Source: Chloroflexota bacterium (GTDB taxonomy: Bacteria > Chloroflexota > Anaerolineae > Aggregatilineales > Aggregatilineaceae). From it: 40,663 nucleotides of DNA. Made by a program: the position numbers and the translations under genes. Under the pieces are notes generated by a model. It searched no databases and was not told the origin of the DNA. It saw nothing but the letters and a program-made list of their open reading frames with translations. The number at the start of each line of letters is the position of its first letter. The stretch's first letter is position 1. The stretch covers positions 1 to 40,663 of the forward strand of contig JAADYV010000181.1 of the NCBI GenBank assembly GCA_010092855.1, written 5' to 3'. This document shows positions 4,406 to 34,573 of the stretch, piece after piece.

Positions 4406-4412
4406 TCTGAGC

Positions 4413-9515: not shown

Positions 9516-9544
9516 TTGCGCAGCGGAATACTATGTACAATACT
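9516..9544 (+). promoter_or_regulatory. Possible promoter of the Tyr/Pro-rich LysM gene
   Basis: TTGCGC (9516-9521), a 17-bp spacer and AATACT (9539-9544) make a weak sigma70-like match about 50 nt before the ATG at 9594. The rest of 9370-9515 is AT-richer than its surroundings and shows nothing I can name. Confidence 0.35.
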
Positions 9545-9593
9545 GATAGACAAAGTAGGCTTAATATTTCGCTTGTGGCGAAAGGGGTCCGGT

Positions 9594-14651: not shown

Positions 14652-16958
14652 GTGGCCAGAAAAAAACTCGGCAAATACGAAATTACAGATCGAATTGGGC
14701 GCGGCGGCATGGCCGAGGTCTACCGGGGCTACCATGCGTCCCTGGACCGCTACGTCGCAATCAAGCTGTTGCATCCGTTCCTGGCGGACGATCCAGAATT
14801 TAAGGATCGTTTCGAGAACGAAGCCCGCAACGTGGCCAAGCTCAAACACCCCAACATCGTACAGGTGTACGATTTCGAGTACGATGCCGAGGGTGAGAGC
14901 TACTACATGGTCATGGAGTTGATCGACGGTCCTACCCTCAAGGACCGACTGTTCGAGTTAACCAGTGCAGCAGATCAAATCCAGTTGGCCGAGGCCATTC
15001 GTATCACCAAGAGTTCTGCCGAAGCCCTGGCTTATGCCCACCAGCGCGGCATGATTCATCGCGACGTCAAACCTGCCAACCTGATGTTGGACGAAGATAA
15101 CCGCGTCGTGCTGACTGACTTCGGGATTGCCAAAATTGTCACCGGTGCCCAGTTCACGGCCAGCGGCGGCATGGTGGGGACACCCGCGTACATGGCTCCC
15201 GAGCAAGGGCTGGGTGAGGCCGGGGATGAGCGCTCCGACATCTATTCCCTGGGCGTGATCTTGTTCCAGTTGGTGACTGGCCAACTGCCCTACGATGCCG
15301 ACACGCCGCTGGGCATCATTCTCAAACACGTCAATGAACCAATTCCGTCGCCGAAACAGTATGTACCAGAGCTGTCCGACGACCTGGAGCGCATAATCCT
15401 CAAATCGCTGGCCAAAGACCCGGAGGATCGCTACCAGTCGGCGGCTGAGTTTGCGGTGGACCTGGGCGCGCTGGACGAATCCGGACGCTATCGCTCACAC
15501 TTTGACACGCAGGTGCGGCTGGCGGCGGCTTCGAAGCTGGCCCCCACCGAAACCACGCCGACACGTCCGCCCATGTTGGACCGTGTGTTGTTTAATTCAC
15601 CTGACACACCAGTTCCGCCAATAGCGCCGCCCGCAGAACCTGATGGACGGTTACACGTAACCTGGATTCTGGGTGCGATTGCCGTGATCGCCTTCATCAC
15701 CGCGGCGGTTCTGTTCTCACTGGCCAGCGACAGCGGCCCTCTGGCCGATTTGTTTAACGGGGAGGGAGATACGACCTCGGAGTCGAACCCGGACGCCCCG
15801 ATAGCTGTTGCAGGCGCTGATCAAACACCCGACGATGGTTCCGCCGCTGGCACCCCGCCAAACGACTCGTCAGACAATAACGGCAACGGCGGCGATGACG
15901 ATTCCTCAGGCTCGAATACGCCAGGGCAATCGCCCCTTCCACCAGGCGTATCCCCTGAGGGGAGCGAGAACGGGACAGAAAGCTCGGGTTCATTGACGCT
16001 CACGGTAACCACGCCGGATGGTCCCGAAAGCGCGGGCGACGATGATGACTCACCGCTGCCGATTCGGTTCTCGCCCACGCCGGTTTCTCCCACACCTGAA
16101 ACGCCATCAAGCACGCCCATCACGCTTACGCTGATGCCGGAATCGTCAACAAATACGCCGACGCCCATCACACCCACGGTGACGCCGGAGCCGCCGACAG
16201 ACACCCCGACTCCTATCACACCCACGGTGACGCCGGTGCCACCCTCCGACACCCCGACTCCTATCACACCCACGGTGACGCCGGTGCCACCCTCCCACAC
16301 GCCGACACCCATTACGCCGACCTTGACACCCTCGCCAACGGTGCCGACGAATACACCCGCGCCGCCAACATCGACCCCGAATCTGACCGCGACAGCGGGT
16401 ATGTTAACCGCCGAAGCTGAGTTCGCGACCCGGGCCGCCAGCACGCCGACACCTAACGCCACGCAGACCTTGCAAGCGTGTGATTTCGACTACATTATCG
16501 ACTACCCGGACGGCACCGAGTCGGAATATGATGAACCACCGGCATCCAATGATTTTGGCAACGAGCGCCTTAAGAATGCCAGCGACGCACCCTGGTCGAT
16601 TAACATCCAGCTGCGCAATACGGGTACCTGTGCCTGGCCCGAAGGTTCACGCCTGAGCTTCAATGAGGTATTGACTGAAAGCCCGGACGAAACCGTTGAT
16701 CTCGACGCTTATCTTGCCGGGTGCAACGAATCGGAACGGCGGGGTGGCTTGAATTTCGCGTACCAGAACCGGGAGAATTTCCTCCTGGACGGTGAAGTGG
16801 ATATCAACGATAATGCCGAGCCGCTGGAATTCACAATGGAACCGCCTCCCCGCAGTGGCTGTTACTATGGCGTTTGGGACCTGCTGCATCCTGCCAGCAG
16901 TGAGGTCACAATTGGCCGCCCGTTGGTCATCACCATTCGTATCTGGGGCGGCAACTAA
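14652..16958 (+). CDS. PknB-type receptor Ser/Thr kinase with extracellular NBR1-like Ig domain
   Basis: GTG start at 14652; 768 residues. The cytoplasmic kinase domain (~9-280) is complete: glycine loop GRGGMAEVY (16-24), Lys38 (VAIK), catalytic Asp138 in HRDVKPANL, Asp156 of DFG, and APEQ. A single membrane helix spans ~337-358. Outside lie an acidic Ser/Asn/Gly stretch, then a Thr/Pro stalk of 16-residue repeats (~480-600). Residues 610-768 form a C-terminal domain with CDFDY, WSINIQLRNTGTCAWPEGS and ITIRIWGGN, features of the NBR1-like Ig domains common in Chloroflexota surface proteins. The extracytoplasmic ligand is unknown; PASTA domains, usual in PknB, are absent. It is likely a sensor of surface or wall state that phosphorylates cytosolic targets. 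It is convergent with the giant gene. Confidence 0.92.
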   Translation: MARKKLGKYEITDRIGRGGMAEVYRGYHASLDRYVAIKLLHPFLADDPEFKDRFENEARNVAKLKHPNIVQVYDFEYDAEGESYYMVMELIDGPTLKDRLFELTSAADQIQLAEAIRITKSSAEALAYAHQRGMIHRDVKPANLMLDEDNRVVLTDFGIAKIVTGAQFTASGGMVGTPAYMAPEQGLGEAGDERSDIYSLGVILFQLVTGQLPYDADTPLGIILKHVNEPIPSPKQYVPELSDDLERIILKSLAKDPEDRYQSAAEFAVDLGALDESGRYRSHFDTQVRLAAASKLAPTETTPTRPPMLDRVLFNSPDTPVPPIAPPAEPDGRLHVTWILGAIAVIAFITAAVLFSLASDSGPLADLFNGEGDTTSESNPDAPIAVAGADQTPDDGSAAGTPPNDSSDNNGNGGDDDSSGSNTPGQSPLPPGVSPEGSENGTESSGSLTLTVTTPDGPESAGDDDDSPLPIRFSPTPVSPTPETPSSTPITLTLMPESSTNTPTPITPTVTPEPPTDTPTPITPTVTPVPPSDTPTPITPTVTPVPPSHTPTPITPTLTPSPTVPTNTPAPPTSTPNLTATAGMLTAEAEFATRAASTPTPNATQTLQACDFDYIIDYPDGTESEYDEPPASNDFGNERLKNASDAPWSINIQLRNTGTCAWPEGSRLSFNEVLTESPDETVDLDAYLAGCNESERRGGLNFAYQNRENFLLDGEVDINDNAEPLEFTMEPPPRSGCYYGVWDLLHPASSEVTIGRPLVITIRIWGGN
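16153..16312 (+). repeat. 48-bp tandem repeat coding the kinase stalk
   Basis: The unit encodes TPTPITPTVTPVPPSD (16 residues). Copies beginning at 16201 and 16249 agree over about 47 of 48 bases; a degenerate copy precedes them and another follows. The near identity points to recent duplication or gene-conversion upkeep, and copy number may vary between strains. Confidence 0.85.
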
Positions 16959-17096: not shown

Positions 17097-17552
17097 TTAG
17101 CCTTGTACCGGGTCGGGAATGCGGATTGCACGCACGACCAGCCGCTCCGAGAACACGCCGTAACTCTGGTCCCAGTTGGTGCACGTGATCAGGGTCAGCG
17201 TTGGGTCGTTCGTCGGCGCGGTGACGGTCCAGTCATCGGGGGAAACGGTGTTTTTCTCCGTAACCATGAAGGTATACGTGCGATACTCACCTTCGCGAAC
17301 GATGATTTCGTCGCCCACCTCCAACTGATCGAGGTTATAGAACGGTCCGGGATCATCGAAGTTGAATTGGAGATGCGCCGCCAGCACGGTATTGCCCCAA
17401 TCCTCCTCCATCCAGGTCGTTCCTTCCAGCCAGCCCACTGCCCAGCGCATCGCGCTGATATCCCAGGTGCCATTTTCGAACGGCAGCGGTTGAATCTGGA
17501 TCTGCTGCTGCCCGAACTCTGGTAGCTTGGGGATTTCCAGGTAGCGCACGCC
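17097..17552 (-). other. C-terminal sortase domain of the giant protein
   Basis: About 150 residues beginning near RYLEIPKLPEFG, the usual start of class D/E/F-like sortase domains. It has the LEGTTWMEEDWGNTVLAAH block with the catalytic His, the strand DEIIVREGEYRTYTFMV, the TLITC motif with the nucleophile, and RLVVRA with the Arg. All three catalytic residues are present, so the domain is predicted to be active. The class within the D/E/F group is not assigned. Confidence 0.9.
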
Positions 17553-20500
17553 ATCCGGTGTTGGCTGGATGTACGGGGTGGCGCTGGGAGGCGAAACGAA
17601 CAGCGAGTCGGAGTCTGCCTGGGGAGTCGCTGTTGCTGTCGCTGGCGGCGGTGGCGTGGTTGGCAACGGTGTCGGCAGCGGTGTTGACTCGGAAGCATCT
17701 GGCCCCTGAGAAGGGTCGGTGGAGGTCTCCGGAGAGACCTCTACCTGTTCTTCTGGTCCATCGGGTTCCTGGTCAGCCACATCCGCTTCTGCACCAGATG
17801 GCGGCTCCAGTTCTTCCTCCCCAGCTTCAGCTTCTTCATCAACTTCCGAAACCGGGGTACCGGTGTCACCATCGTCATCGCTGTCCTGGGTGACCAGCAG
17901 TACAGCGGCCCCGCCGATAGCGATGAGGGCGACGATGACAAACAGCCCTGCCAGCGTTGTCCGCCGATTGGAAGGCTGGCTGCCCATCAACAGCATCAGC
18001 GCTCCCACCAGCAGCACGCCGAACAACCCATCCAGGCGGAAGCCCAGCGGAGCGCGTGGCTCACTACCGGTTGCGGGCAGTTCGCTGGCTTCCGGCCCGA
18101 TGTTGACCGTCGCGTCGTCACAGACTTCTTCACCGCCCTCGCGTGTTGCGCAAAAGGTGTTGGTGATCTGCGCCGGGGGCACCACGTCCGCGTTCACGGT
18201 CGTGGTCACCGTGATGATGATGCTTTCGCCCGGCGCTAACGGCTCGGTGGTGTCAACCGTGTAGACGTTGCCTTCGGGGAAGAGCTGGGTTCCACCCTGC
18301 ACGACCGACACGATGGTCAGCGTGGACGGGAATTCGTCTCGCATGGAGAGGATGCCCATCGGGTTGGTACCACCGTTGCGGACCTCAACCGTCCACGTCA
18401 CGGTGTCACCCGGTAGGGCGGATTCCACGTCCACCGACTTGGTGATCTGCGGCTCAGTGGCATTGGGGTCGAGCGTGGGCGTGATGGTTGCGCTGCCCGA
18501 CGGGGTCGGAGTCAGGTAGTTGGCCGGGGTGATGGTCCGATCGACTGTAGCGTTGATTTGTCCATCGACGTTGACACCGGCAACTGCCACTTCAAGTACA
18601 TAGCGTCCAGTCTGGTCCTCGGTGCGCTGGATAGTGGCCGTGATGCTCAAGCCTGCTCCCAGCGTGACTGGTTCAGTGCCCAGCGAGAAGGACGTCCATC
18701 CGGTCTGCTGTGGGGGCCGTGGACCACCGCTGGTCAACATCCAACTGCTGCTGGAGGTGGTCGCCAGCGGAACGATGCGGTACTGCCCGGCCAGCCCCGT
18801 GATGGGCGTTGTGCCATTGTTCGTGACCCGGACAGCGTAAGAAACGCTTTGGCCAGTCACCGGCGCGTTGGGGATGACTTGCAGGATTTCAACCACCAGG
18901 TCTTGCTGGTCGTCACCCTGGACATCCAGTGTCTCCGAGTCGGTTCCGAAGACTGTGTAGTTGTCTTCATCACCAGGAGTGAACAACGTGCTGTAGTACC
19001 CACCGTCCGCCATGACTTCGATGTCGGTGTTGTCTTCACCTTCGGAGACTGTGTAGTCTACGGTTGTCTCGGTTGCAGATTCTCCTGGCTGTAGCACAGT
19101 ATCTTCGAACAGTGTTTCCAGCGGTGTGAGCACCGCGTTGAGGTCTGTGCTGATCGGGTCGGTGGTAAAGAGTGCACGCAGGTGGCAGGTCGAGTCTGGG
19201 TCTACGCCGGGGTATTCCGTTGTGTTGCACCCAATCGGCGATGCGCCCTCGTTGGTGATGGTGAGCGTCACGTTGATGGCATCATCCGGTTGCACAGGGT
19301 TCTCGCTAAGGGTCAGTTCGACACCCAACCGCAGGTCCACCAGTTCTACAGTAGCGGTACCCTCTGCAATAAGGGTTTCCGTACCAGATTGGCCTGTAGC
19401 GTTTACGGATAGTGTCCGGTTTAGCCCGTTGGTGGTCAGGTAGTCAGGCTCACCGATTGGCGGGACAAACGTGCAAGTCACATTGACGAAATCATCAGGT
19501 TCGAGGGTTATCGGGTTCACATGCCCCGCTGGTTCGAGAATAGGTAAGGCGTCCAGTGCAGGAGTGCACTGGAAGTCTTGGGTTAGGCTGGGTATGGTAG
19601 TGCCGACAGTGGCTTGCAGTCCAGTTATCTGTTCTGCGCCAATATTACGTAGTTCGAAGGTGAGAGTTGCTGATTCGCCGGTTTGGAGCAGATCGGGCAG
19701 ACCAAAGCCAGAAGTCTGTTGAACACTCAAGATGGTCGCCGTCATGCCCGCCGTTGAGATGGTCACGCTGGCGGTGTCGGTGGCTACCGGCGTACCGTCA
19801 ACCTGGACCTCAGCCGTATTGTCATACGTTGGGTTCGTGTAGGGGTCTGGCACATCGTAGAACCCTTGCACCACCGTGTCGCCAGGCTGGACCGTGATCG
19901 GGAAGACCGTATCGAACGAGTCTACTCCCGGATCAACCAGGTTGACATTGGCGATGGGGCTTTGGGTGTGATTGGTGATGGTGAAGTTGTAGGTGATCGT
20001 GCTGCCGGGCACTGTCGTCGATGACGTCGGTGTTTTATCCAGCGAAATGATGTCGATGCTCAGCGGCACACTGGCGGTGTCGGTCGAAACTGTCGTACCA
20101 CTCACCTCCAGGGTCGCCGTGTTGTCCAGCGTTGGGTTCGCGAAGATTGGGTCGCCGGGGTCTGTCGGCAGCGGGAAGGTTGCCACATCAGGACCCCAAC
20201 CTCCCGCGGGTACGCTGAGTGTCCCGAAGGGCAACGGATCGAGCAGCGGGTCAGTTATCGTCACGCCTGTTACCGTGCTGCTGGTGTTGTTGGTGATCTC
20301 GAATGTGTACGTGATGGTGTCACCAGGATACGCGGTGGTCAGGTCTGCGGTTTTGGTCAGGGTCAGGATGTCGGTCTGCAGGGCGACGACGGCTGTGTCT
20401 TCATCTTGCAGCACACCGTCAATTGACACGCCCACCGTCGTATTAAGCGTCGGCGAGTCATAGATCGGGTCGCCAAAGGCTGGTAACTCGTAGAACCCGT

Positions 20501-23500
20501 TGAAATTGTTCGGGCCCGGATTCAGGCTGCTGGGCGGCAAGATGTAGGTAAAATCGCTGGGGTCGAAGTCCAGGGTGAAGTTGGTGATCGTGCTCTGGCC
20601 CAGGTTCGTTATGGTGAAGTTGTAGACGATGGTGTCGCCCGGATATCCAGAATCTGGGGTCGGGGTCACCGTCAGTTGCAGCACTTGCACCGTCACCGTT
20701 GCTGTTGCGGTATCCTGCGAAGTGCCATCCTCGAACACTTCCGCGGTGTTGGTGATCTGCGGTTCAGTCGTCGTATCGGGGATGATCACGTCGTAGGTGT
20801 ACTCCCACGCCTGGCCCGGAGCCAGCGCGGGTACCGTTACTGCCAACGGTGTGCCGGGCGGGTCCTCAATGGTGATGTTGTCCGCGCCTTCGAGGTCGTC
20901 GATGTTCTGGATACGCAGCCGGTAGGTGACCGTGCGGTCGGCATCGCTGCCATTGAGCGGCACCGACAATGGCGAGACTTCTTTCGTCAGTGCCAGGAGT
21001 GTGGTGTCCGAGTCGACAACCGAGACGATGGCCGAGTCGGTGTCCTCGAAGTCAGTTGCCGTGTTGGCACCCACCGCTGTTGCCGTAACCGTGTTGACCA
21101 CCTGGTCGTCAGTAACCTGCACGGTGTAGGTGCCGGTCATGGTGAAGCTGTTGCCCGGATCGAGCGTCGCGGGCGGTGCCGGGCCCAGGACCAGCATCGG
21201 GTCGATAACCGCGATGGTTTGCAGCGGTTCGTCGCCGACATTGGTGACTTCGATGGTATAGTCGATATCTTCGCCCACTTGTGCGGAAATCACGTCGGCG
21301 CTCTTGACAACCAGAATGCCGCCGGTCGTGACGTTCACTTCTGCGGTCGCCGAGTCGGAGAGAGCCGTTGGGCCGGTCGCTTCGACAAATACGGTCGATA
21401 CCACCGGTCCCGGCAGGTCAGCCGTGACAGTGCGGTACACCGTAACGCTGTCGTTGGCGAGCAGTGTCGCCGGGATCGTCAGCGCACCAAAGCTGTCCGA
21501 GAGTGTCAGGCCGGTCAGGTCGGTGTCGCTGAAGTTGGACACGACGTAGGTGAAGGTCACATCTGCGCCATCGAGCACGTAGTTTGCGCTCGGGGTGTTG
21601 GTGACCGCCAGGGTGTCATTCGACAGGATGTTGACGGTCTCTGTTGCCTCGACCATGATATCCTGCAAGCCAACCTGGCCGGTAACGGTCAGGGTGTTGA
21701 TGTAGGGGTCGGGGTCCGCGCCGGTCATGGTGCGGGTCACGGTGCGTGTTTCGATCTCACCGGGGTCCAGTTCCGTGGGCCAGGGCGGGCTAACTGTCAG
21801 ACCGGTGTCGGAGTCGGACACGTTCATGCTGGTGATCGTGGTGTCGCCCGTGTTTTCGATGCGGTAGGTGAAGGTCACCAGGGTCCCAACGGTCACGAAG
21901 TTGTCGTCTGCGGTTTTGGATACCGTCAGGCCGCCGCTCACCACGTTGATGCTGTGCGTGGCCACGTCGCTGACCGGAACGGTATTCTGGATACCTTCGG
22001 CGCGCGCGGTGTTGACCACCGGCGAACCATCTGCGGGCGAGATCGTGTGCGTGAAGGAGCACACTTGCGATTCGCCACCGTTGAGGTCAAACGGCCCGCA
22101 GATCGGGTTCGATGAACCGGTCATCGGGTCGAAGACTTCGATGCCCGTGATCGGCTGTCCGGACGGGTTGGTGTGGGTTACCGTCAGCGTATAGGTAACT
22201 TCTTCGCCGAGCGCAGCCTGGGCTGGTGCATCTTTGGTCAACTCCAGTTCGCCAGAAACCAGGCTGATGCTGGCCGAATCTGTCGCTTCGACATCCAATG
22301 GCGGGTCAGACGGTATCTGGCCCACGACCGTGATCGTGTTTTGCAGCGGGTCCGGGTCGCCAGGTTGGATTGTATAGGGGTACATCAGGCGCTGGATGGC
22401 TTCGCCCGGCCCCAACTCGTTCGGTTCGTCGGGCCACACGATGCCATCGAAGACACCGGCAGGTGCGTTCGGGTCAGAGATGGCGATGTTTTGCAGGTTC
22501 AGCGCACTGGGATTCGAGATGTCGACGTAGTAGGTGATGGTGTCTTCTTCGTCGGTGTCGACGACGGCGGCGCATGGGTTGTTGATCGTAGCCGGATTCC
22601 CGTCGATGTCGGGGCCCCCGCACGCCTGCTTGACGACTATCAGATTTCCGGTCTGGATGTCAACCGTTGCCTGGGCCACGTTGACAATCGTGGTCATGTT
22701 GATCGTATGGCCCGTGACCGTCACCCAATTGACGAACGGATCGTCGTCACCGGCGTCCAGGGTATAGGTGTACGTAGTTTCGTAGGTTTCATTCGGATCG
22801 AGGGTGCCGGCGTCACTGCCTTCGGTGTTCGGGAAGCCATCTTCAACCGTCATCGTGCTGCCGGGCATACTCGCGTCAGCGATCACCAGGCGTTCGAGCG
22901 CGATGCCGCCCACGTTGGTGACGCGCACGGTGTAGATCACACTGGTGCCCACCGGCCCCTGTGTGATCGATGACAGCTTCTCGACATTGATACCCGCGTC
23001 GCGGATGTCAATCGTAGCCGAGGTACGGTCGATCACGGGGCTGAGGGTCGGACCGGATTCGCCGGTCACTTGCACCACATTCGTATATTCGGCACCATCA
23101 TAGGGATCGGGCACCGTGACCGTGAAGCTGCCGATCAGTTGTTCGCCGGGCAGCAGCGGGTCGGTGCCGTTGTAGGTGGTGCCTGCTTTCGGATTCGGGA
23201 CATCTGGCGTCCCTGGGTCCCCGTCGTCGTCCCAGTAGGGCTGCAAGCCATACACAAACGTCGTCAACGGCACGACTTCGAATTCATCCACGTCCAGCAG
23301 TTCCAGGCTGGACAGGTCGTCGCCGGTGCCACCGGTGTTGGTGATGATCACGTTGTAGGTGACAGTCTGGCCCTGGCTGGCGGCCTGGATGGCCGGTGAC
23401 ATGCTCAGCCGGATGCCGGGTTGAATGATGTCAACTGCGACGGTCGCCTCTCCCTCAACCGGGTCGGGCAGCGGGTTGCCATCGGCATCGTTGACGTCAC

Positions 23501-26500
23501 CCAGCACTGTGATCGTGTTGACGAACGGGTCCCAGTTGGGGTTGGCCAGCAAGGTCGCAGCGTCGGGCAACGTTATTTCATAGGTAATGAATCCCGTTTC
23601 ATACGAATCGAGCTCTGGATCGCTGACTTCGCACGTCGCGGGATCACCGGGGTCGGGGCAGTCGTAAACCGTGCCACCCGGTGCGTTCGCGGGATTCACG
23701 TCGGTGCCCCGGATGTTGGAAACACGGCGGCTGCCGATGTTGAGGATGCTGATAGTGTAGCTCACGGTGTCACCGGGGTTAGCGGTCAGCGGCTGGGCAC
23801 TCTTGCGCACCAGTAACTGGCTGGAAGTAACAGCCACGGCAGTGCGCGTGCTGTCAAGGACTTCCGTCCGTTGATCGGGTTCAACATTGTCGTTCAGGAA
23901 GCCGACTGCTACCGCGTAGTTTTCCAGCGGATCGGGATCGTCAGCCTGGATGACGTAGGAATAGGTGTAGGTCGCATACCCGCCATCCTCAGTTGGGCCG
24001 GTCGGAGGAGCCAGTTGGCCCACCGGGTTACCCACCACGCCACTGTTCGACCAATCGAACTGGTCCAGCGGGATTTGCACCGGCGACCCACCGCCAAACG
24101 CATCCGTGATCACGATGTCTTGGATGTCGTAAGTCAGGTTGCGGTTTTCGATGCGGACGACGTAGGTGATCTCCTCGCCAACGTAGGCCAGCGGCTGCGA
24201 GGGCGTCTTGGTGATCATCAGGTCTTGCCCCAGCAGGTCAACGGCCAGCTCGTACTCGTTGTAGACTTCGGTGCCGTTGGATGAGGTGCCCGTCAGCGAG
24301 GCCAGGTTGACGACCGGGTCGCCCATCGTGATCGCATTCAGCGAGATCGGGCCACCGGGCGGCGCGTAGCAGAATATAACCTCTTCACCTGCGTAGAGCA
24401 TGGCTGGCCCGCGCGGACCAACTGCGCCGGGAGGCAGCGTGGGAAGCTGTGCCGCGATGGCGGCTTCGAACTGCTGCTGCAGCGTATTCGGCTCGGTGCC
24501 GATGGGCAACAGCATGGGGTCCACCAGTTGGATGTTTGCGACGTAGGATAGCTCCTCGCCAGGTTGGATATCGGTCGAGGCGGTGTTGGTGATGGTGAAG
24601 CAGTAGTCAACGGTCTGACCGGCGTCTGCTTCTGGCATCCCATCGCCATCCGGCAAGCTAATGGGCAGATTGTCCGGCAGAGGATCCCCGGTTGTACTAT
24701 CTTGCACCGTCTTGACGATGGCGATTTCCGGGTCTTCCAGGTCGACTTCAGCGATGACTTCGTTGGTGATGTCACGGTCCAGGCCATCGGGCACAATTAC
24801 GCGCCCAGCGGCGGTCACAGTGTTCACCAGCGGGTCCGGCGCATTGATCGGAATGGTGTATTCCACACCTTCCACCAGGATGAAGTCGAACGGAGCGAAC
24901 AGCGGAATCGGGTCGGGGATCAGGTCACCAATCAACGAGTCCACCAGCGTCACGTTTTGGATGTCGTAGGGGCTGATGTTGGTCAGGGTGTAGTCATACG
25001 AGATCGTGGTCCCTGGCGTTGCACTGTCAACACTGGGTTCTTTGGTCAGTTGCAGCGGGTTCGACGTGAAGATCATCAGCTCGAACCAGGTGATGAACGT
25101 GACATCTGGATCGGCAGGGTCTGGGAACTCGGCAGTGATGACGTTGACCAGTTCTTCTGGATCGGTAGGCAGCACCGTGCGCGGGACCGCGGTCGTCAGG
25201 ATTTCGCCGGGACCCATGATACCGGTGGTTTCGAAGGGTTCAGGGGGATCCCCGCTCCCATCGTAGTCCAGCGGGATCGGGCTGGGCTGCAGCAGCGAAT
25301 CGTACACGGTGACGGTGTAGTAGTCGTAGGGATCATCGTCGTCTTCGGTTACGTTTTCGACTGTGATGTCATAGGTAACCACGTCTCCGGCAAATGCCAG
25401 GAACATGTCGTTACGCGGCCACTTGAAGACGAAGATCGGACTATAGACGTAGTACCGGAACTCCTGCTGACATTGGTTGGACCCGGCCACTTCGGAGAAT
25501 GTTGCCGTAAGCCGGTCGCCCATGTAGTCCTCACCAGCGCCATAGTACTCGTTGGTGATCAGTTTTTGGAACGATTGCAGAGTTGCGGTCTGTCCCGGTT
25601 CCAGCGTGCCGATGGCCCCCGGCCAGTTGATGACCGGGTCGTTACCAGGCTCGCCCCAGTTGAGGGTTTCATCGATGACGATGTTGTTGATGGTTTGGGT
25701 GCTGACATTGGTGAACCAGATGTCCCATTGCAGGTCTTCACCCAACACATCGTCCGGATCGTCGTCCAGGTTAGTCACAACCAGGTCAAATTCAATAGGG
25801 CACGCGATATCGATTGTATGTTCCGCCTGGCCAGAAACGGTGCTGCCATCAGGCTTTCTACCGCTGACGACAAACACGTTGGTCAGGGGTGTGGGCACAG
25901 CTTCGACAGAAGCGATGGTGAAGCGGCCTACTACCGTGTCGCCTGGTGGCAGGATGCCGGGCTGCCCAGGCCATGTCCCAATCTGGTCGTAGTCGATGCC
26001 GAAGTCGGCATGTGTGATGACTGGGAAGTTGTACGGCGGCTGGTTCAGCACCGTGTCGGTGTAGCTGAGCACGGTCAGCGTCTGGCTGTGCGAGTTGTTC
26101 TTGATCTCGATGTCGTAACTGATGGCTTGTCCGGCATCGGCGGTAGATGGACCAGTTTTGATCACGCCGATCATCGGGATCAGCACTACATCTGCCAGGC
26201 CGTTGCCCTGGAACTCCTGGCCGCTGAATTCAGCCAGCACACGGACGTGCATCGTGAAGACCGTACCGGGCAGCGCGCCGGGTAGGTCGATGGTATGCAG
26301 GAAATTGCCCGAAATCAACCCGCCATCGGGGAACGTGTCGGCGGTGCCGACCAGTTCATAACCATACGGGTCGCCGGAGTCTTCCTGCGCCATGTTGTAG
26401 ATGCGCACGTTGGTCAGTTCAACGCCGGAGTTGTTGTAGACGTTGTAGGTGAACGTTTCTTCATCGCCATTAACGGCGTTCTGTGGGCCACCAACTTCGA

Positions 26501-29033
26501 CGACGATGTCCTCTGTCGCGACCGTGATGCGTGTCGCCGCGCGGATCGAGACTTCCTTACCCTCGGCATCGGTGCCATACATGGTCACTTCCACCACGAA
26601 CGGCGACTCCTCGATGTCCCTGGCCAGGATAGTGTAGTTGAATGTGCCCGATACCGGCTCGAACGGCACAATCGAGCCCGCTGTCAAGTCGTCAATTTCT
26701 TCGCCACAGATAACCGGCTGCGCGTGTGGGATGCAGTACGTGGCTGTTAAGTTGGTCAGCGTGACCGCGCCCACGTTTTGCGCCGCAAAGGTGAAGGTAA
26801 GTTCCTCGTCTTGCATCGCCGCGCCATCCGGCCCCAGGTCTACCAGCAGTTCGGCGTTAACCTGGGCATTGGAGATGTCCAGCGTCCGCACCGTGCTGTC
26901 GCTTAGCGCTCCCAGGTCATCACCAGGGCAGCTATCATCCGCGATCACTTCGAAGATCATGTGCAGTGGATCGGGATCGGACCCGGTCACCAGGTAGGTC
27001 ACGGACGTCGTGGCCGTTTCATCTCCGCTGCCCGTTGCTTCCAGGCGTCCTGGGGTGGCAGTCGGCCAGTTCATGGGAATCGCCATCATCACTGGCACAT
27101 CGGTATCCGTAAGCAAGTCGCGCCGGTATTGGTTAACGACCACGTTGCAGATGGGCGCTGGTGTTTTGTTCTCCACCGTGATCTCGTATACCACGTTACC
27201 CCCGCGCAGCACGGTGGGGCGATCGGGTTCGGTCACGATGACGCTGATCCCGATATCCGGGCTGGCGATATCGATGATGTGATCATCCTGCCCGTACAAT
27301 ACGCGGTTGGTGCCCGACACGCCACGTACTCGCGCAACACTGCTCAGCGGGTCTGGATCAGCACCGGTGATGTCGTATTGCCAGGTCAGCGTTCGCTCCC
27401 CGTTGGGCAGCAGCGTAACGGTGGATAGGTCTGGTGCACTCCCGACTGGTGTAATGACGTACTCCAGGTCGGAAATGATCGTGTCTGAACTCTCGTTTTC
27501 CAACAGCAGTCGGTACTCAACGGTTTGCGGTGGCGTGGCGATATCCACCGGGTCACCGGTGCCTGGATTAACGGCAGTCAGGGTGACCTTCAACGAAGAG
27601 TCGGCCAGGTCCACCGAGGTCGCGGCCACCGCGTCAACGGCTGCGCCGCCAGTGCCAACGCCTTTGGCTGTAACCTCTACCGTATTCACCAGCGGGTCGG
27701 GGTTGGAGGGTATTACCGTGTAGGTGGTTGTCGCCGCGAACTCCTGGCCGGGGTCGAGTGTCGTGCCGAATGGTACGGGCACAACCCCGGTCAAGCTGTC
27801 GACGATCCACAAGTCTTCTAGCTGGATTTCGCCGGTGTTTCGAACAATGATCGCATATGTGATTACATCGCCGGGTTCAGCGGGGGGCGAAACCACGTTA
27901 GGACCGCGCTTGATCTCCGTCACGTTCTTCGAAATCGAGACATCCGGCAGTTCCACTTCCACCGGGGTACTGGTAACCTGCCGTGAAACCTCGATGGAGC
28001 CATCTGATACCCGCAGTTGCCCCGTCAACGAATAGGTTTCTGGGGCGGGATTGCTCGGAATCGGGATATCAAAGATCTCACACTGAGCCTGTTCGCCGGG
28101 GGGCAGATTGCCTGTCCCAAAGACCAGCGGTGTCCCGGTCATGTCCAGCCAGTTTTCGAAGTCGGCACACGCGGTCTGGAACCCTGGCACCGACGAGGTC
28201 ACCGTGATGTCGGTGATGGTGTTGCCGGGGCGCACATTCTCGATCACCAGCGTGAAGTCAACATTCTGGTTGGGGGCAGCAGAGGCCACCGAAGGGTCAA
28301 ACGACACGACCTCGAACCCTGGCCCCAGGATTTCGACCTGGTCATCATCGAAGTCAACTGTGTCGTTGGGGTCAACGCCGATGTCATCCTTGTCGTTTTC
28401 GGCTTCGGCAGCGGCTTTTACGCGGATAGTGAGATCGCCGTTCACGGCTGCGGGCACGTCATACTCCACCACGGCCCAGGCCAGTTCCCCGTCCAACAAA
28501 ACTTTTTCCGGATCAGAGGTGGGGAACTGCAACGGAACGTCAATCACTGCCAGCCCGCTGCCACTGGTATCCCCAAAGACAAGTTGGGCCTCGACCATGT
28601 GGAGTCGTTCTGGGTTGTTGCATTCCGGGTCTCCACCGGTGGAATTCCCAACTACGACCAGCCAGCTCATCGGGTCACCGACTTGCCGTGATACGACTTC
28701 CGGTGTTGGCGTGGTCTCCGTATCTTCGACAGTAGCCCCATAGTTCGGCTGCTCAGGATCAGGCGGTCCGGTGAACGGTGCAGCCAACAAAAAGCCGTTC
28801 ACCGCCAGTTTACACGGGAAGCGGTCATCGTCTGGCAACGCCGGGCGAAGGGGGGCGTCCGGGGTGGTTTCCGCGCGCGGATCGTCTTGCCCATCCGCCG
28901 GGCCGTTTATGTCGTCCTGGACATCCCCTGCATGGGGTTGGTGGTCCAGGGCTAACACTACCTGTACCTGGCTAATCAACAGCGCCAGGACAATCAGTAG
29001 TGTACTCGACCAGGGAACTATCTTCCTTTTCAT
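17097..29033 (-). CDS. Giant DUF11-repeat surface protein fused to its own LPATG signal and sortase domain
   Basis: A 3978-residue reading frame without interruption; AGGAGA precedes the ATG at 29033. A signal peptide (MKRKIVPWSSTLLIVLALLI) is followed by a ~200-residue N-terminal region and about 25 DUF11-type beta-sandwich repeats of ~90-125 residues. The repeats are recognisable by DPLVNTVTV-like strand endings and 'PGDTITYTxxITN' starts. At 3652-3656 is LPATG, after which come a hydrophobic helix (~3670-3684), an RR pair, a second helix (~3694-3714), an acidic then Pro/Thr linker, and a sortase domain (~3828-3978). The sortase carries His3887 (VLAAHLQF), Cys3951 (TLITCTNWD) and Arg3964 (ERLVVRA). 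The topology puts both LPATG and the sortase outside the membrane. Substrate and enzyme are thus one polypeptide. The GT4 genes lie upstream on the same strand across a 150-bp gap. Likely roles are adhesin or surface-layer fibre; the fate of the cleaved product is unknown. Confidence 0.93.
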   Translation of the reverse strand: MKRKIVPWSSTLLIVLALLISQVQVVLALDHQPHAGDVQDDINGPADGQDDPRAETTPDAPLRPALPDDDRFPCKLAVNGFLLAAPFTGPPDPEQPNYGATVEDTETTPTPEVVSRQVGDPMSWLVVVGNSTGGDPECNNPERLHMVEAQLVFGDTSGSGLAVIDVPLQFPTSDPEKVLLDGELAWAVVEYDVPAAVNGDLTIRVKAAAEAENDKDDIGVDPNDTVDFDDDQVEILGPGFEVVSFDPSVASAAPNQNVDFTLVIENVRPGNTITDITVTSSVPGFQTACADFENWLDMTGTPLVFGTGNLPPGEQAQCEIFDIPIPSNPAPETYSLTGQLRVSDGSIEVSRQVTSTPVEVELPDVSISKNVTEIKRGPNVVSPPAEPGDVITYAIIVRNTGEIQLEDLWIVDSLTGVVPVPFGTTLDPGQEFAATTTYTVIPSNPDPLVNTVEVTAKGVGTGGAAVDAVAATSVDLADSSLKVTLTAVNPGTGDPVDIATPPQTVEYRLLLENESSDTIISDLEYVITPVGSAPDLSTVTLLPNGERTLTWQYDITGADPDPLSSVARVRGVSGTNRVLYGQDDHIIDIASPDIGISVIVTEPDRPTVLRGGNVVYEITVENKTPAPICNVVVNQYRRDLLTDTDVPVMMAIPMNWPTATPGRLEATGSGDETATTSVTYLVTGSDPDPLHMIFEVIADDSCPGDDLGALSDSTVRTLDISNAQVNAELLVDLGPDGAAMQDEELTFTFAAQNVGAVTLTNLTATYCIPHAQPVICGEEIDDLTAGSIVPFEPVSGTFNYTILARDIEESPFVVEVTMYGTDAEGKEVSIRAATRITVATEDIVVEVGGPQNAVNGDEETFTYNVYNNSGVELTNVRIYNMAQEDSGDPYGYELVGTADTFPDGGLISGNFLHTIDLPGALPGTVFTMHVRVLAEFSGQEFQGNGLADVVLIPMIGVIKTGPSTADAGQAISYDIEIKNNSHSQTLTVLSYTDTVLNQPPYNFPVITHADFGIDYDQIGTWPGQPGILPPGDTVVGRFTIASVEAVPTPLTNVFVVSGRKPDGSTVSGQAEHTIDIACPIEFDLVVTNLDDDPDDVLGEDLQWDIWFTNVSTQTINNIVIDETLNWGEPGNDPVINWPGAIGTLEPGQTATLQSFQKLITNEYYGAGEDYMGDRLTATFSEVAGSNQCQQEFRYYVYSPIFVFKWPRNDMFLAFAGDVVTYDITVENVTEDDDDPYDYYTVTVYDSLLQPSPIPLDYDGSGDPPEPFETTGIMGPGEILTTAVPRTVLPTDPEELVNVITAEFPDPADPDVTFITWFELMIFTSNPLQLTKEPSVDSATPGTTISYDYTLTNISPYDIQNVTLVDSLIGDLIPDPIPLFAPFDFILVEGVEYTIPINAPDPLVNTVTAAGRVIVPDGLDRDITNEVIAEVDLEDPEIAIVKTVQDSTTGDPLPDNLPISLPDGDGMPEADAGQTVDYCFTITNTASTDIQPGEELSYVANIQLVDPMLLPIGTEPNTLQQQFEAAIAAQLPTLPPGAVGPRGPAMLYAGEEVIFCYAPPGGPISLNAITMGDPVVNLASLTGTSSNGTEVYNEYELAVDLLGQDLMITKTPSQPLAYVGEEITYVVRIENRNLTYDIQDIVITDAFGGGSPVQIPLDQFDWSNSGVVGNPVGQLAPPTGPTEDGGYATYTYSYVIQADDPDPLENYAVAVGFLNDNVEPDQRTEVLDSTRTAVAVTSSQLLVRKSAQPLTANPGDTVSYTISILNIGSRRVSNIRGTDVNPANAPGGTVYDCPDPGDPATCEVSDPELDSYETGFITYEITLPDAATLLANPNWDPFVNTITVLGDVNDADGNPLPDPVEGEATVAVDIIQPGIRLSMSPAIQAASQGQTVTYNVIITNTGGTGDDLSSLELLDVDEFEVVPLTTFVYGLQPYWDDDGDPGTPDVPNPKAGTTYNGTDPLLPGEQLIGSFTVTVPDPYDGAEYTNVVQVTGESGPTLSPVIDRTSATIDIRDAGINVEKLSSITQGPVGTSVIYTVRVTNVGGIALERLVIADASMPGSTMTVEDGFPNTEGSDAGTLDPNETYETTYTYTLDAGDDDPFVNWVTVTGHTINMTTIVNVAQATVDIQTGNLIVVKQACGGPDIDGNPATINNPCAAVVDTDEEDTITYYVDISNPSALNLQNIAISDPNAPAGVFDGIVWPDEPNELGPGEAIQRLMYPYTIQPGDPDPLQNTITVVGQIPSDPPLDVEATDSASISLVSGELELTKDAPAQAALGEEVTYTLTVTHTNPSGQPITGIEVFDPMTGSSNPICGPFDLNGGESQVCSFTHTISPADGSPVVNTARAEGIQNTVPVSDVATHSINVVSGGLTVSKTADDNFVTVGTLVTFTYRIENTGDTTITSMNVSDSDTGLTVSPPWPTELDPGEIETRTVTRTMTGADPDPYINTLTVTGQVGLQDIMVEATETVNILSNDTLAVTNTPSANYVLDGADVTFTYVVSNFSDTDLTGLTLSDSFGALTIPATLLANDSVTVYRTVTADLPGPVVSTVFVEATGPTALSDSATAEVNVTTGGILVVKSADVISAQVGEDIDYTIEVTNVGDEPLQTIAVIDPMLVLGPAPPATLDPGNSFTMTGTYTVQVTDDQVVNTVTATAVGANTATDFEDTDSAIVSVVDSDTTLLALTKEVSPLSVPLNGSDADRTVTYRLRIQNIDDLEGADNITIEDPPGTPLAVTVPALAPGQAWEYTYDVIIPDTTTEPQITNTAEVFEDGTSQDTATATVTVQVLQLTVTPTPDSGYPGDTIVYNFTITNLGQSTITNFTLDFDPSDFTYILPPSSLNPGPNNFNGFYELPAFGDPIYDSPTLNTTVGVSIDGVLQDEDTAVVALQTDILTLTKTADLTTAYPGDTITYTFEITNNTSSTVTGVTITDPLLDPLPFGTLSVPAGGWGPDVATFPLPTDPGDPIFANPTLDNTATLEVSGTTVSTDTASVPLSIDIISLDKTPTSSTTVPGSTITYNFTITNHTQSPIANVNLVDPGVDSFDTVFPITVQPGDTVVQGFYDVPDPYTNPTYDNTAEVQVDGTPVATDTASVTISTAGMTATILSVQQTSGFGLPDLLQTGESATLTFELRNIGAEQITGLQATVGTTIPSLTQDFQCTPALDALPILEPAGHVNPITLEPDDFVNVTCTFVPPIGEPDYLTTNGLNRTLSVNATGQSGTETLIAEGTATVELVDLRLGVELTLSENPVQPDDAINVTLTITNEGASPIGCNTTEYPGVDPDSTCHLRALFTTDPISTDLNAVLTPLETLFEDTVLQPGESATETTVDYTVSEGEDNTDIEVMADGGYYSTLFTPGDEDNYTVFGTDSETLDVQGDDQQDLVVEILQVIPNAPVTGQSVSYAVRVTNNGTTPITGLAGQYRIVPLATTSSSSWMLTSGGPRPPQQTGWTSFSLGTEPVTLGAGLSITATIQRTEDQTGRYVLEVAVAGVNVDGQINATVDRTITPANYLTPTPSGSATITPTLDPNATEPQITKSVDVESALPGDTVTWTVEVRNGGTNPMGILSMRDEFPSTLTIVSVVQGGTQLFPEGNVYTVDTTEPLAPGESIIITVTTTVNADVVPPAQITNTFCATREGGEEVCDDATVNIGPEASELPATGSEPRAPLGFRLDGLFGVLLVGALMLLMGSQPSNRRTTLAGLFVIVALIAIGGAAVLLVTQDSDDDGDTGTPVSEVDEEAEAGEEELEPPSGAEADVADQEPDGPEEQVEVSPETSTDPSQGPDASESTPLPTPLPTTPPPPATATATPQADSDSLFVSPPSATPYIQPTPDGVRYLEIPKLPEFGQQQIQIQPLPFENGTWDISAMRWAVGWLEGTTWMEEDWGNTVLAAHLQFNFDDPGPFYNLDQLEVGDEIIVREGEYRTYTFMVTEKNTVSPDDWTVTAPTNDPTLTLITCTNWDQSYGVFSERLVVRAIRIPDPVQG
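17892..18080 (-). other. Internal sorting signal: LPATG plus two membrane helices
   Basis: The codons 18066-18080 read LPATG. The following helix (LFGVLLVGALMLLMG) and RR look like an ordinary C-terminal sorting signal, but instead of ending the protein crosses back through a second helix (LAGLFVIVALIAIGGAAVLLV). The region is thus a hairpin anchor linking the exported ectodomain to the exported sortase. Confidence 0.9.
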
Positions 29034-29183
29034 AGACGTCTCCTGTACTCAAAAAGATAAGGCCAACTTGCGGAGAGCATAGGAACTGGTATTTTCAGGT
29101 GCGGTGCTATGCTCAAGACGATAAAACTGGGCACATTGCCACATTGTAAAGCTGAGATTCCATTTACGATCTTTATTAGGATA

Positions 29184-30470
29184 TCATGAATACCTGTTTT
29201 CATCCGTGAAATTGGTCCTAAATTCCTCCGAATTATGACAGTTTTTGACACCACTTAAACATGTGTATAGCTGTAATAGGGTGTCAGCCGCGCGCCCCCA
29301 ATGAAATCGGCTTCGACCCAGGCGTTGCGCTTGCCTGGCCAGCGCCAAACGCACCGGTGTGTTTCGAAGCTGTCGCAACGCTTTCAGCGCAGCCTCTGGT
29401 GTGGCGTCTACCAGTACCAAACCACAGCGTTCGCGCTGTACAACTGCGGCTATCTCGCCCACTGGTGTGACCAGCAGCGGACGACCCACGCCCAGCGCGT
29501 AGAATCCCAGGTTAGGCATGAAGTACTGGCTGTTCGGGTTGCGCGCATTAAGCCCATAATATACGACATCCCCGGCTGCCACCACTTCGGGGACCTCGTG
29601 CAAGGGCACCCAACTCAGCAACCGGATGCGTTCACAGTTTTGCGCCGCGCGCTGCAGGTCCACTTTTTGAGGACCGTCCCCACCAATGATCAGCCAGACG
29701 TCCGGTATTTGCCGCACAGCGTCGACCAGCGGCAGCAACAGGCGGTCCGGGTTCAGCCAGCCCACGTATACAACCACTAGCGCACCTTCCGGTATTCCCC
29801 ATTCTTCGCGAAGCACGCGTGCACGTTGGTCAAGTTTCGCGTGATCTGGTAGTGGCTGACTGTTATGTACCACCCACACGCTTCCGCCCATCAGGCGGAA
29901 TCGCGCCGCCAGCCGTTCCCCTACCGTGACCACCGCATCCGTTCGCGGCGTCAACCACCGGTCCAGCCGTTCCAGTCCTCGGGTCAGCCATGAACCGACG
30001 TTGTCACGCACCATGCCGGGATAGTATTCGCGTGCATCGTAGATCACCGGGCACCTCGCCAGCCTGCCATATGCCATCCCCACCGGAAGTGTATCCAGGT
30101 CGTGCGCATGTACAATGTCAGGCTGAAAGCGGCGTAGTTCCTGAAACGCGCGCCACCAGAACACGGGCAGTGTTCGCAGCAGACGGCGTCCCGTCTGGTA
30201 TCCGGCCTGAACCTGGATGTGCGTGACCACAACCGACGTAGGTGCAGTAGCGGGCTGGTTTGACCAATCTGCCAGTGCTGCCGAGAGCGATCCTGGCGTG
30301 TGCTCGATGGTATGCACCGGGTGGCGGCCTTCCCGGTCCCATGCAATGACGTGCATTTGGTAACCGGCCAGGGCCAGCGTATGGGCCTCCTTCTCGACGC
30401 GCACATCTGGCCCGTGCGCTCTAGAAATTAACATTGCTACCCGTTGGCGTGTGCCGCGTGTTTGTAACAT
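29184..30470 (-). CDS. GT4-family glycosyltransferase (distal gene of pair)
   Basis: A 428-residue GT-B fold protein. The N-terminal half shows AMLISRAHGPDVRVEKEAHT and PDIVHAHDLDTLPVG; the C-terminal half shows VVYVGWLNPDRLLLPLVDAV, WLIIGGDGPQK and a donor-binding section around PNLGFYALGVGRPLLVTPVGE. The usual EX7E motif at the end is not well conserved. A nucleotide sugar should be the donor; the acceptor is unknown. Its ATG at 30470 is 5 bp after the stop of the upstream GT4 gene, and the AGGAG site lies inside that gene's end, so the two are translationally linked. The last ~20 residues (CHNSEEFRTNFTDENRYS) are polar and look dispensable. It precedes the giant gene by 150 bp. Confidence 0.87.
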   Translation of the reverse strand: MLQTRGTRQRVAMLISRAHGPDVRVEKEAHTLALAGYQMHVIAWDREGRHPVHTIEHTPGSLSAALADWSNQPATAPTSVVVTHIQVQAGYQTGRRLLRTLPVFWWRAFQELRRFQPDIVHAHDLDTLPVGMAYGRLARCPVIYDAREYYPGMVRDNVGSWLTRGLERLDRWLTPRTDAVVTVGERLAARFRLMGGSVWVVHNSQPLPDHAKLDQRARVLREEWGIPEGALVVVYVGWLNPDRLLLPLVDAVRQIPDVWLIIGGDGPQKVDLQRAAQNCERIRLLSWVPLHEVPEVVAAGDVVYYGLNARNPNSQYFMPNLGFYALGVGRPLLVTPVGEIAAVVQRERCGLVLVDATPEAALKALRQLRNTPVRLALARQAQRLGRSRFHWGRAADTLLQLYTCLSGVKNCHNSEEFRTNFTDENRYS

Positions 30471-30475
30471 AAGAT

Positions 30476-31678
30476 TTACGCCAGAATCTCCTGGTAAAAC
30501 ATCATAAACTTACGCATTTCCGTCTGCCAGTTGAACACTTGCTGCGCTGCGCGCACGTTTTTTCGGAAGACTTCCTGGTTTTCCTCGCTTAGAATCGATT
30601 TCAGCGCGTCTGCAATCGAACCGGGATCGTTGGGGTCGCACACTACGCCAAGCCCGTGCGGTTGAACGAGACGCCGCAGCACGAACATGTCCGAAGCCAC
30701 CACCGGCACCCCTGCGCCAATAGCTTCGTAAAGCTTGTTGGGCTGCCCTGCCCGCGTATTCCACGACTCGGCGCGCATCAGGATCGCGGCGGCATGTGCG
30801 GTACGGATGGTGGCCGCGACTTGCTCCGGTGGGACTGGTGGCAGAAAGAATACACGCTGCGCGATGCCTAGCTGGGCTGCTAATCTTCTGGTCTCTTCGC
30901 ACGATTCGCCTTTGCCCAGGAAGACCAGCGTCACGTCCTCTGGCAGCAGCGCGATGGCCTTCACCAGTTCGCTGACGGCGCGTCGCCGGTTGGTGATCTC
31001 GCCGGTGTGTACGATGATGTGCTGCCCCTCTTCGGCCACTGTTTGTAGGTCAACTGGTGCGCGTGCGTCTTCCGGCACAGGATCGACCGCGTTTTGGATG
31101 ACGACTGGATGCACACCATACCAGCGTGCCATCAACCGGGCACGTCCCTCGGCCAGTCCCAGGACTCCATCTGTGTGTTGTGCTAGCTTGCCTTCCAGCC
31201 ACATGGAAAGTGGTCGATTCACGCGGTGCCACAGGTTGGTGGTGCGTGTCCGGAAAGGAGACTGGAATAAGAACAACTCATGTGCATCGTACACTAGCTT
31301 GGCGCGTGGGTTGAATCGTCTGCGTGCCAGGGTGAGCAAAATTAACGCCGGAAGGTCATGCGCGTGATAAACGCACGTAGGGGTGGCGCTCAGTGCACGT
31401 AGAATCTGCCAGGCTTGCAGCAGGTGTCGGATCCAGCGCCAGGGTTGCCATAGGCTTGCGCCCAAACGCCAATAACGTATCCGCCGCAGCTCGTAGCCAT
31501 CGACTGTTTCCCGATCCGGCAGTGTGCCACCGGATCGTTGAGTGCCCACTACCAGCACGCGCCAGGTGGTGGCCAGTGCTGCCGCTTCGTTACGCACCCG
31601 TCCATCATGGGCGATATCATTGAGCACGAGCATGATAACGTCGTAGGAGGCGGTTGTGGATTTTTGTTGTCTGCGCAT
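30476..31678 (-). CDS. GT4-family glycosyltransferase (first gene of pair)
   Basis: A 400-residue glycosyltransferase with the GT-B pattern: VIMLVLNDIAHDGRVRNEA at the N-terminus, VYHAHDLPALILLTLA, LVYDAHELFLFQSPF, then IIVHTGEITNRRRAVSELVK, LVFLGKGESCEE and the donor site NKLYEAIGAGVPVVASD. Its glycine-rich start (DIAHDGRV) is typical of capsular or exopolysaccharide GT4 enzymes. It has no membrane helix and probably acts on the cytosolic face on a lipid-linked acceptor. It is divergent from the flippase, with 48 bp between start codons, and co-directional with the second GT4 and the giant gene. Together they suggest export of a surface glycan or glycosylation of surface proteins. Confidence 0.88.
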   Translation of the reverse strand: MRRQQKSTTASYDVIMLVLNDIAHDGRVRNEAAALATTWRVLVVGTQRSGGTLPDRETVDGYELRRIRYWRLGASLWQPWRWIRHLLQAWQILRALSATPTCVYHAHDLPALILLTLARRRFNPRAKLVYDAHELFLFQSPFRTRTTNLWHRVNRPLSMWLEGKLAQHTDGVLGLAEGRARLMARWYGVHPVVIQNAVDPVPEDARAPVDLQTVAEEGQHIIVHTGEITNRRRAVSELVKAIALLPEDVTLVFLGKGESCEETRRLAAQLGIAQRVFFLPPVPPEQVAATIRTAHAAAILMRAESWNTRAGQPNKLYEAIGAGVPVVASDMFVLRRLVQPHGLGVVCDPNDPGSIADALKSILSEENQEVFRKNVRAAQQVFNWQTEMRKFMMFYQEILA

Positions 31679-33244: not shown

Positions 33245-33358
33245 GCAGTATTTCCTCACACTGCCCTCTCAATTGCCACACACGCGGAAAACCAGTACAC
33301 TTCATCATGTCGATGGGGGCACGACAACAGGTGATTGGCATTACAGCGGAGAAGAATT

Positions 33359-34573
33359 ATGACATGGGCCACCAAAAAACTGCCGCTTATCCTGGCAGTG
33401 GTATTTATCTTGCTCGCCGCGTTTCCTTCCCCCTCCCCTACCCTGGCACAAGGTCCGGGTACGCATACGGTGCAAGCTGGGGAAAATCTGTTCCGCATTG
33501 CACTGCGCTACAACACCACCGTTGAAGCGCTGAGCGTCGCCAACGGCATCGCCGACCCGACTCGCATTTATCCGGGCCAGGTCCTGGTCATTCCCGCCAC
33601 GGTTACCCCAACAGTAGCAGCTACCAACAGTCCGGCGGTCAACCCTGCCCCAGCAACCGCAGACCCGGCTCCGGCGGCTAATGCCGTGCCTGCCACCAAC
33701 CCTGGCCCGGTGTACTATACGGTCCAGGCCGGCGATAACCTGTCGGCCATTGCGCGTGCTTACGGCGTGCTATGGACCGATATCGCGGTGGCCAACGGCA
33801 TCGCCGACCCCAATACCATCTACCGGGGCCAGCAACTGCTGATTCCTGGGGCAACGGCTCCCGGCACAGCAGCAGTCGCGCCGCCAGTGAACGTGGCTCC
33901 CGCCGCAAACACGGTCCCAGTCACCTCCGACCCGGTCAACGTTGCGCCTCCGGTGCAGGACCCGGTACCAGTGACCAATCCCGTCCCAGCGACGAACACT
34001 GGCACCCGGACACACACCGTGCAAGGCGGCGAACATCTGGCGCAGATCGCGCGGGCGTATAACATAAGCTGGCCCACCATTGCGCGGGCCAATAACATTA
34101 CTGACCCCAACCAGATATATCCCGGCCAGGTGCTGACCATTCCCGCCACCGACGATGGCCAGGGTACCTATATGCAACCAGCAACCTTCAACGCCCCGGC
34201 TGCCCCACCGACGATCACCACCGGCAAGCAGATCGTGGTCGACCTCAGCGACCAGCGCGTCTATGCCTACGAAAACGGCCAACTGCTGCGGTCAGTGTCG
34301 GTCTCCACTGGTCTGGACGTCTACCCCACTGTGCAGGGCGACTTTAATGTGTATCTGAAGTACGACTCGCAGACGATGTCCGGTCCCGGTTATTACCTGC
34401 CCGGCGTGCCTTACGTGATGTACTTCTACCAGGGCTATTCGCTGCACGGCACCTACTGGCACAGCAACTTCGGCACGCAAATGTCACATGGCTGCGTGAA
34501 TATGTACACGCCCGACGCGCAGTGGTTCTATAACTGGGCACCGATTGGAACGCCGGTGCATGTCCAGGCGTAA
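33359..34573 (+). CDS. Three-LysM L,D-transpeptidase (YkuD family)
   Basis: Start at 33359 (MTWATKKLPLILAVVFILLA), with GGAG 7 nt upstream; the track's earlier TTG start is less likely. The 404-residue product has a signal peptide (~1-31) and LysM domains at ~36-79 (HTVQAGENLFRIALRYN), ~119-163 (YTVQAGDNLSAIARAYG) and ~218-262 (HTVQGGEHLAQIARAYN), joined by Pro/Ala/Thr/Val linkers. A YkuD domain covers ~288-404 (QIVVDLSDQRVYAYENGQLL). The catalytic motif is complete: HGTYWHSNFG, then SHGCVNM with nucleophile Cys379. It should form or modify 3-3 peptidoglycan crosslinks, or attach proteins to the wall, outside the membrane. It is a single gene between the flippase and a bidirectional hairpin. 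Confidence 0.94.
   Translation: MTWATKKLPLILAVVFILLAAFPSPSPTLAQGPGTHTVQAGENLFRIALRYNTTVEALSVANGIADPTRIYPGQVLVIPATVTPTVAATNSPAVNPAPATADPAPAANAVPATNPGPVYYTVQAGDNLSAIARAYGVLWTDIAVANGIADPNTIYRGQQLLIPGATAPGTAAVAPPVNVAPAANTVPVTSDPVNVAPPVQDPVPVTNPVPATNTGTRTHTVQGGEHLAQIARAYNISWPTIARANNITDPNQIYPGQVLTIPATDDGQGTYMQPATFNAPAAPPTITTGKQIVVDLSDQRVYAYENGQLLRSVSVSTGLDVYPTVQGDFNVYLKYDSQTMSGPGYYLPGVPYVMYFYQGYSLHGTYWHSNFGTQMSHGCVNMYTPDAQWFYNWAPIGTPVHVQA

Follow-up and report, generated by a model that had tools for sequence, protein, structure and literature searches.

A giant Chloroflexota surface protein that joins an LPxTG sorting motif to a sortase domain in one conserved chain

Sortases are generally regarded as stand-alone enzymes that encounter their substrates at the membrane. 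One gene in a stretch of 40,663 nucleotides from an Aggregatilineaceae bacterium of the Chloroflexota (contig JAADYV010000181.1; here called the window, at its full length) encodes a sorting motif and a sortase domain in a single polypeptide, and it raises the question of whether such an enzyme processes its own chain or that of a neighboring copy. A sequence-only reading of this DNA had described an uninterrupted 3,978-residue frame with a DUF11 ectodomain, an LPATG motif, two helices separated by RR and a sortase domain, and had proposed a self-anchoring surface protein. The frame is confirmed: it runs from 29033 to 17097 on the minus strand (the reading gave no strand), contains no internal stops, and begins six bases downstream of an AGGAG at 29040-29044. 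The residue numbers it had assigned to LPATG, His3887, Cys3951 and Arg3964 are exact in every case, and RR lies where it had described it. The parts of the giant protein are laid out as follows.

17097..29033, minus strand: whole gene of the 3,978-residue substrate-sortase fusion, from the uninterrupted frame and the AGGAG
28947..29033, minus strand: predicted signal peptide, roughly residues 1-29 with an approximate end, from MKRK and the hydrophobic peak (residues 5-31) that follows it
18084..28946, minus strand: extracellular part, a tandem DUF7507/DUF11 (CLIPPER) stalk, about residues 30-3650, from Pfam
18066..18080, minus strand: sorting motif LPATG, residues 3652-3656, from the sequence and an LPxTG in 8/8 giants of the family
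17970..18047, minus strand: first membrane helix, about residues 3663-3688, from hydropathy and an AlphaFold2 helix at 3668-3683
17961..17966, minus strand: RR, residues 3690-3691, presumed cytoplasmic, from the sequence and invariant in six modules of the same type
17880..17960, minus strand: second membrane helix, about residues 3692-3718, from hydropathy and an AlphaFold2 helix at 3689-3718
17553..17879, minus strand: acidic, Pro/Thr-rich linker, about residues 3719-3827 (some 110 residues), a low-confidence coil in AlphaFold2
17112..17552, minus strand: sortase domain, about residues 3828-3974, from PF04203 and PDB sequence and fold matches
17373..17375, minus strand: catalytic His3887, kept in all homologues
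17181..17183, minus strand: catalytic Cys3951, within LTLITC, kept in all homologues
17142..17144, minus strand: catalytic Arg3964, kept in all homologues

The ectodomain is recognized by Pfam as both DUF7507 (PF24346, 15 stretches, E 3e-103) and DUF11 (PF01345, 11 stretches, E 5e-59), in agreement with the DUF11 assignment made earlier, and the sortase match (E 3e-23) covers residues 3859-3969. These stalk domains, renamed CLIPPER_2 and CLIPPER, build the stalks of fibrillar adhesins and frequently contain intramolecular isopeptide bonds (PMC12617251). Great length, tandem stalk domains and a signal peptide, the features of a fibrillar-adhesin stalk protein, are all found in the giant, and its N-terminus resembles those of its homologues; the Pfam search shows no known adhesive domain. 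LPATG is the sole LPxTG of the protein and is followed, as in a sorting signal, by a hydrophobic helix and positive residues, with 322 residues coming after the motif. The helix-RR-helix arrangement noted previously is reproduced by hydropathy peaks at about 3663-3688 and 3691-3718 and by the helices of the AlphaFold2 model. The linker that follows varies in length among homologues and is unconserved in sequence, and His3887 is the only histidine beyond residue 3560.

On sequence and modeled fold, the C-terminal domain is a real sortase domain with predicted transpeptidase activity, as the sequence-only reading had supposed. It scores 82.3 bits against PF04203 (cut-off 26.6) and narrowly exceeds the generic TIGR01076 model (39.5 bits, cut-off 39.35). 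The NCBIfam models for sortase classes C, D, E and F give 27-40 bits against cut-offs of 140-166, so that none is reached, and no class A or B model stands among the matches listed up to E 1. A PDB sequence search returned sortases, the best being 4d7w (E 1.5e-8), and the catalytic trio of His, Cys (in TLxTC) and Arg is present and invariant in homologues. Structure prediction, suggested earlier as a check, had a favorable outcome at modest confidence: the AlphaFold2 model of the whole module contains two helices and a sortase core (mean pLDDT 58), and that of the sortase alone reaches a mean pLDDT of 63 and a pTM of 0.66, modest values because the alignment was limited to nine sequences. Among the 50 PDB matches listed in a fold search with the sortase-only model, every one is a sortase, the top match having E 1e-7 and probability 1.00. 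The model, at this modest confidence, does not put LPATG into the active site. A phage protein library was also searched, with no match. The giant's enzyme thus shares its fold and His/Cys/Arg with the class A-F sortases (NCBIfam; PDB 4d7w, 4d70, 8t28) but falls below the cut-off of each matching class model (C, D, E, F), and differs from them in having its presumed substrate close by in one chain.

A fusion seen in one fragmented assembly (662 contigs) could be an artifact in which two genes were joined through a missing stop. The probability of this explanation is practically nil, since the same order of parts occurs free of stops in many independent assemblies, including one of five contigs (G001), and a related form occurs in single-contig genomes; the homologues refute it. 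Eight giant sortase frames were recovered from 18 genomes of the same family, one of them from the five-contig assembly and another truncated at the end of its contig. All eight carry LPxTG, a helix, R or RR, a second helix, a linker and a sortase with His, Cys and Arg. A contig search with the alignment detected eight loci, five on contigs equal in length to those of giants already seen and three being contig ends; the window sequence alone retrieved no loci in the same kind of search. Three further families of the order, f2, f3 and f4, have giants of this kind as well, so that the DUF11-LPxTG-TM-TM-sortase relatives for which a search had been proposed do exist in the family and beyond it. 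The LPxTG-sortase fusion is a real arrangement, conserved in many genera of this Chloroflexota class.

Conservation within the module bears on the question of self-processing. The window's giant and the five sequences closest to it share 45-52% identity over the module, and in these six modules of the same type the L, P, T and G of the motif, the RR and the catalytic residues are invariant, whereas the linker and the residues directly after LPxTG diverge; retention of the motif against this background of divergence supports self-processing. The position of LPxTG is likewise constant across homologous giants. Such strict retention at a conserved position is unexpected if the giant serves, at full length, as a membrane scaffold that presents an active sortase at the surface to other substrates while its own LPxTG is cut rarely or never. 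A C-terminal, membrane-tethered sortase as in ordinary sortases, together with the trans substrates that exist in the genome, would suit a scaffold, and we consider this explanation quite unlikely.

A second architecture lacks the membrane helices. In families f32, f56, f59, f22 and f16, large proteins (type 2, as distinct from the membrane-hairpin type 1 of the window) have LPxTG joined to a sortase with no membrane helix, the motif lying 70-78 residues, about 72, before the catalytic GNxxxxxH. Phe follows LPxTG directly in 26/27 cases, and the 27th has an extra motif closer to the active site besides the usual one. Several such proteins occur per genome in places, with four from the single-contig genome G269 in the census alignment. 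The fixed spacing between motif and active site is a further point in support of self-processing. It could also be read as a sign that LPxTG is no cleavage site and acts as a built-in lid or pseudo-substrate, occupying and regulating the active site in the manner of class C sortase lids. The conserved Phe and Pro after the type-2 motif fit a lid, as do the class C sortases among the sequence and fold matches of the giant's domain. However, in the window's type two helices and a length-variable linker stand between motif and sortase, and the motif is the full cleavable consensus including Thr-Gly; we regard a lid as very unlikely. In three single-contig type-2 genomes, 6/8 LPxTGF sites in plausible surface proteins are the fusions themselves, which again supports self-processing, and the remaining 2/8 are small classical LPNTGF-helix proteins. 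Apart from these types, a 529-residue protein of G001 (L045, contig C2, frame from about 3135) combines LPNTG with a sortase domain, the two not separated by any clear membrane helix, and is apparently another kind of fusion.

The association of motif with large sortase proteins was measured against short sortases. In a first census, [LI]PxTG was found no more than 420 residues before the active-site His motif in 33/36 large sortase proteins (480 aa or more) and in 0/30 short ones, three of the latter being cut by contig ends and possibly belonging to giants. This difference supports self-processing, and the short-sortase control (0/30) rules out a chance occurrence of LPxTG. The first census is the least biased count: the search profile has LPxTG at its positions 1-5, and the type-2 proteins were found through the sortase part alone, all their profile matches starting at position 80 or later. 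An enlarged census, run later with [LIVM]PxTG, gave 40/42 large against 0/30 complete short proteins (Fisher p 3e-18), a count that is partly biased in that some loci were fetched with an LPxTG-containing profile and in that related sequences are not independent. One 505-residue protein (L119, G268 contig C23) has WD40-looking repeats followed by a sortase domain, without LPxTG. In a scan of 350 genomes of the phylum, the listed matches that cover the LPxTG part of the profile occur only in this class; outside it, the sortase matches listed start later in the profile, and their frames are almost all shorter than 550 aa. A tree of 66 sortase domains contains three fused groups: type 1a, which includes the window's giant (support 100/98), type 1b (100/99) and type 2 (99/100). 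Because these groups are well supported, yet the AU test does not reject a common origin for all fused forms (p 0.17; 0.079 for type 1 alone), one to three fusion events are possible.

These observations lead to a mechanism to which we assign somewhat better than even chances: the sortase would cleave the LPxTG of its own or a neighboring chain and transfer the stalk to an amine of the envelope. The chain would be exported by its signal peptide, with the DUF7507/DUF11 stalk folding outside. The helix after LPATG would stop transfer, RR would remain cytoplasmic and the second helix would lead back out, a topology with stalk, LPATG and sortase outside and RR inside that follows from the positive-inside rule. 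The earlier proposal that LPATG and active site lie on the same outer face fits well here, since two helices with RR between them should bring both to one side. From outside, on its flexible linker, the sortase could reach LPATG in its own or a neighboring chain, where Cys3951 would attack between Thr3655 and Gly3656. The stalk would be held as a thioacyl intermediate and then passed to the amine, and the hairpin with its sortase would remain in the membrane and may act again. The acceptor would most likely be a peptidoglycan precursor, the most plausible candidate because the genome has penicillin-binding proteins, which are peptidoglycan enzymes, and a LysM-L,D-transpeptidase gene lies nearby. 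Self-cleavage is plausible in that engineered sortase-LPETG fusions have been shown experimentally to cleave themselves (PMC2901362).

Extending this proposal to both forms, the hairpin and helix-free proteins may be a class-wide natural family of self-processing surface proteins, each substrate having a dedicated sortase. A secreted helix-free protein would activate its own Thr as an acyl-enzyme and ligate itself to a surface acceptor, a course resembling that of an intein, except that the final ligation is to a different molecule. We advance this broader reading tentatively, at somewhat less than even chances.

The main competitor to processing by the giant's own sortase comes from the rest of the genome, in which the giant may be a classical LPxTG substrate cut in trans by another sortase; the attached sortase would then be set free in the membrane to act on other substrates, and the fusion would deliver both together. 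Four sortase genes are present besides the giant, and one encodes a PLD-like and LysM protein (L006, minus strand of contig C237, 1-2757, truncated where the contig stops) whose C-terminal sortase is closely similar to the giant's, with neither LPxTG nor helix ahead of it. An initial view that the genome has no other LPxTG substrate was dropped when a DNA-pattern search found at least four further LPxTG proteins; their number is probably higher because about 70/137 CTG-coded sites were inspected. A generic LPxTG profile and a giant-specific profile had shown no further LPxTG protein in the genome, both being insensitive: the former misses the window's own motif and the latter misses other giants. 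Two of the proteins found are classical, ending LPSTGYPPDE..helix..RRGQ and LPATGYPQDDD..helix..RRKNA. Two large, secreted-type proteins, L176 (C70, about 6153) and L187 (C135, about 10089; its end resembles DUF11), terminate directly behind LPATGYPPDEE and lack both helix and positive tail, and so have sorting motifs without an anchor. Trans processing is thus possible given the four sortase genes and at least four LPxTG proteins. However, the other LPxTG proteins found share LPxTGYP against LPATGSEP in the giant, which suggests separate specificities; other genomes manage with stand-alone sortases and no fusion; and in G269 the type-2 pairing of enzyme and motif recurs several times. Trans processing is rated rather unlikely. 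The single-gene system with one enzyme per substrate envisaged in the sequence-only reading stands in so far as the intact one-gene arrangement recurs in many genera, and is weakened in so far as the other sortases and LPxTG proteins allow sharing in trans.

The genes adjoining the giant recur at some homologous loci, where they were identified by N-terminal sequences, the window copies being identified by Pfam.

29184..30470, minus strand: glycosyltransferase upstream of the giant, a possible partner (Pfam glycosyltransferase 4 / group 1)
30476..31678, minus strand: second upstream glycosyltransferase, a possible partner (Pfam)
14652..16958, plus strand: Ser/Thr protein kinase, convergent with and adjoining the giant (Pfam PF00069)

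The two glycosyltransferases are also found at L041, L042 and L043, and the convergent kinase at L039, L041, L042, L043 and L099, in several genera. The window's kinase includes a stretch rich in Thr and Pro and, at its C-terminus, a weak Ig-like match (N_BRCA1_IG) that stays below the cut-off. Apparent envelope or secreted proteins around the giant lie at 4113-7316 (plus), 7430-9112 (minus), 9516-10703 (plus) and 33335-34573 (plus), three of the four having LysM-like repeats; Pfam identified three LysM and a YkuD L,D-transpeptidase in the last.

Each part of the giant is known from other systems. With classical LPxTG proteins, which have a separate sortase, it shares a signal peptide, a long repetitive ectodomain, LPxTG, a helix and positive residues, but its signal is not C-terminal, the same chain continuing with another helix and a sortase. 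With the DUF11/DUF7507 (CLIPPER) fibrillar adhesins (PMC12617251, PMC9210967, PMC8286594) it shares great length, a tandem stalk and a sorting motif, but the motif lies 323 residues from the end with an enzyme after it. Surveys of fibrillar adhesins sought LPxTG only within the last 50 residues (PMC9210967, PMC8286594) and therefore miss the LPxTG-sortase architecture. The engineered fusions (PMC2901362) also combine enzyme and motif in one chain but are soluble, artificial constructs in which the sortase precedes the motif; the natural fusion has the opposite order. No description of a natural LPxTG-sortase fusion was found in the open-access literature searched, subscription papers and preprints being outside its scope. 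Sortase, LPxTG signal and DUF11 stalk are thus known parts, and it is their coupling in one natural chain that was not found described in that literature.

A conserved fusion of substrate and enzyme, if true, would imply a different logic for the cell surface, in which the two are made in equal numbers with little cross-talk and perhaps a single turnover. Such proteins would offer natural models of self-cleaving and self-ligating sortases for protein engineering. Few members of the Chloroflexota have been cultured, and the mechanism, if true, would explain how members of this phylum attach giant stalks.
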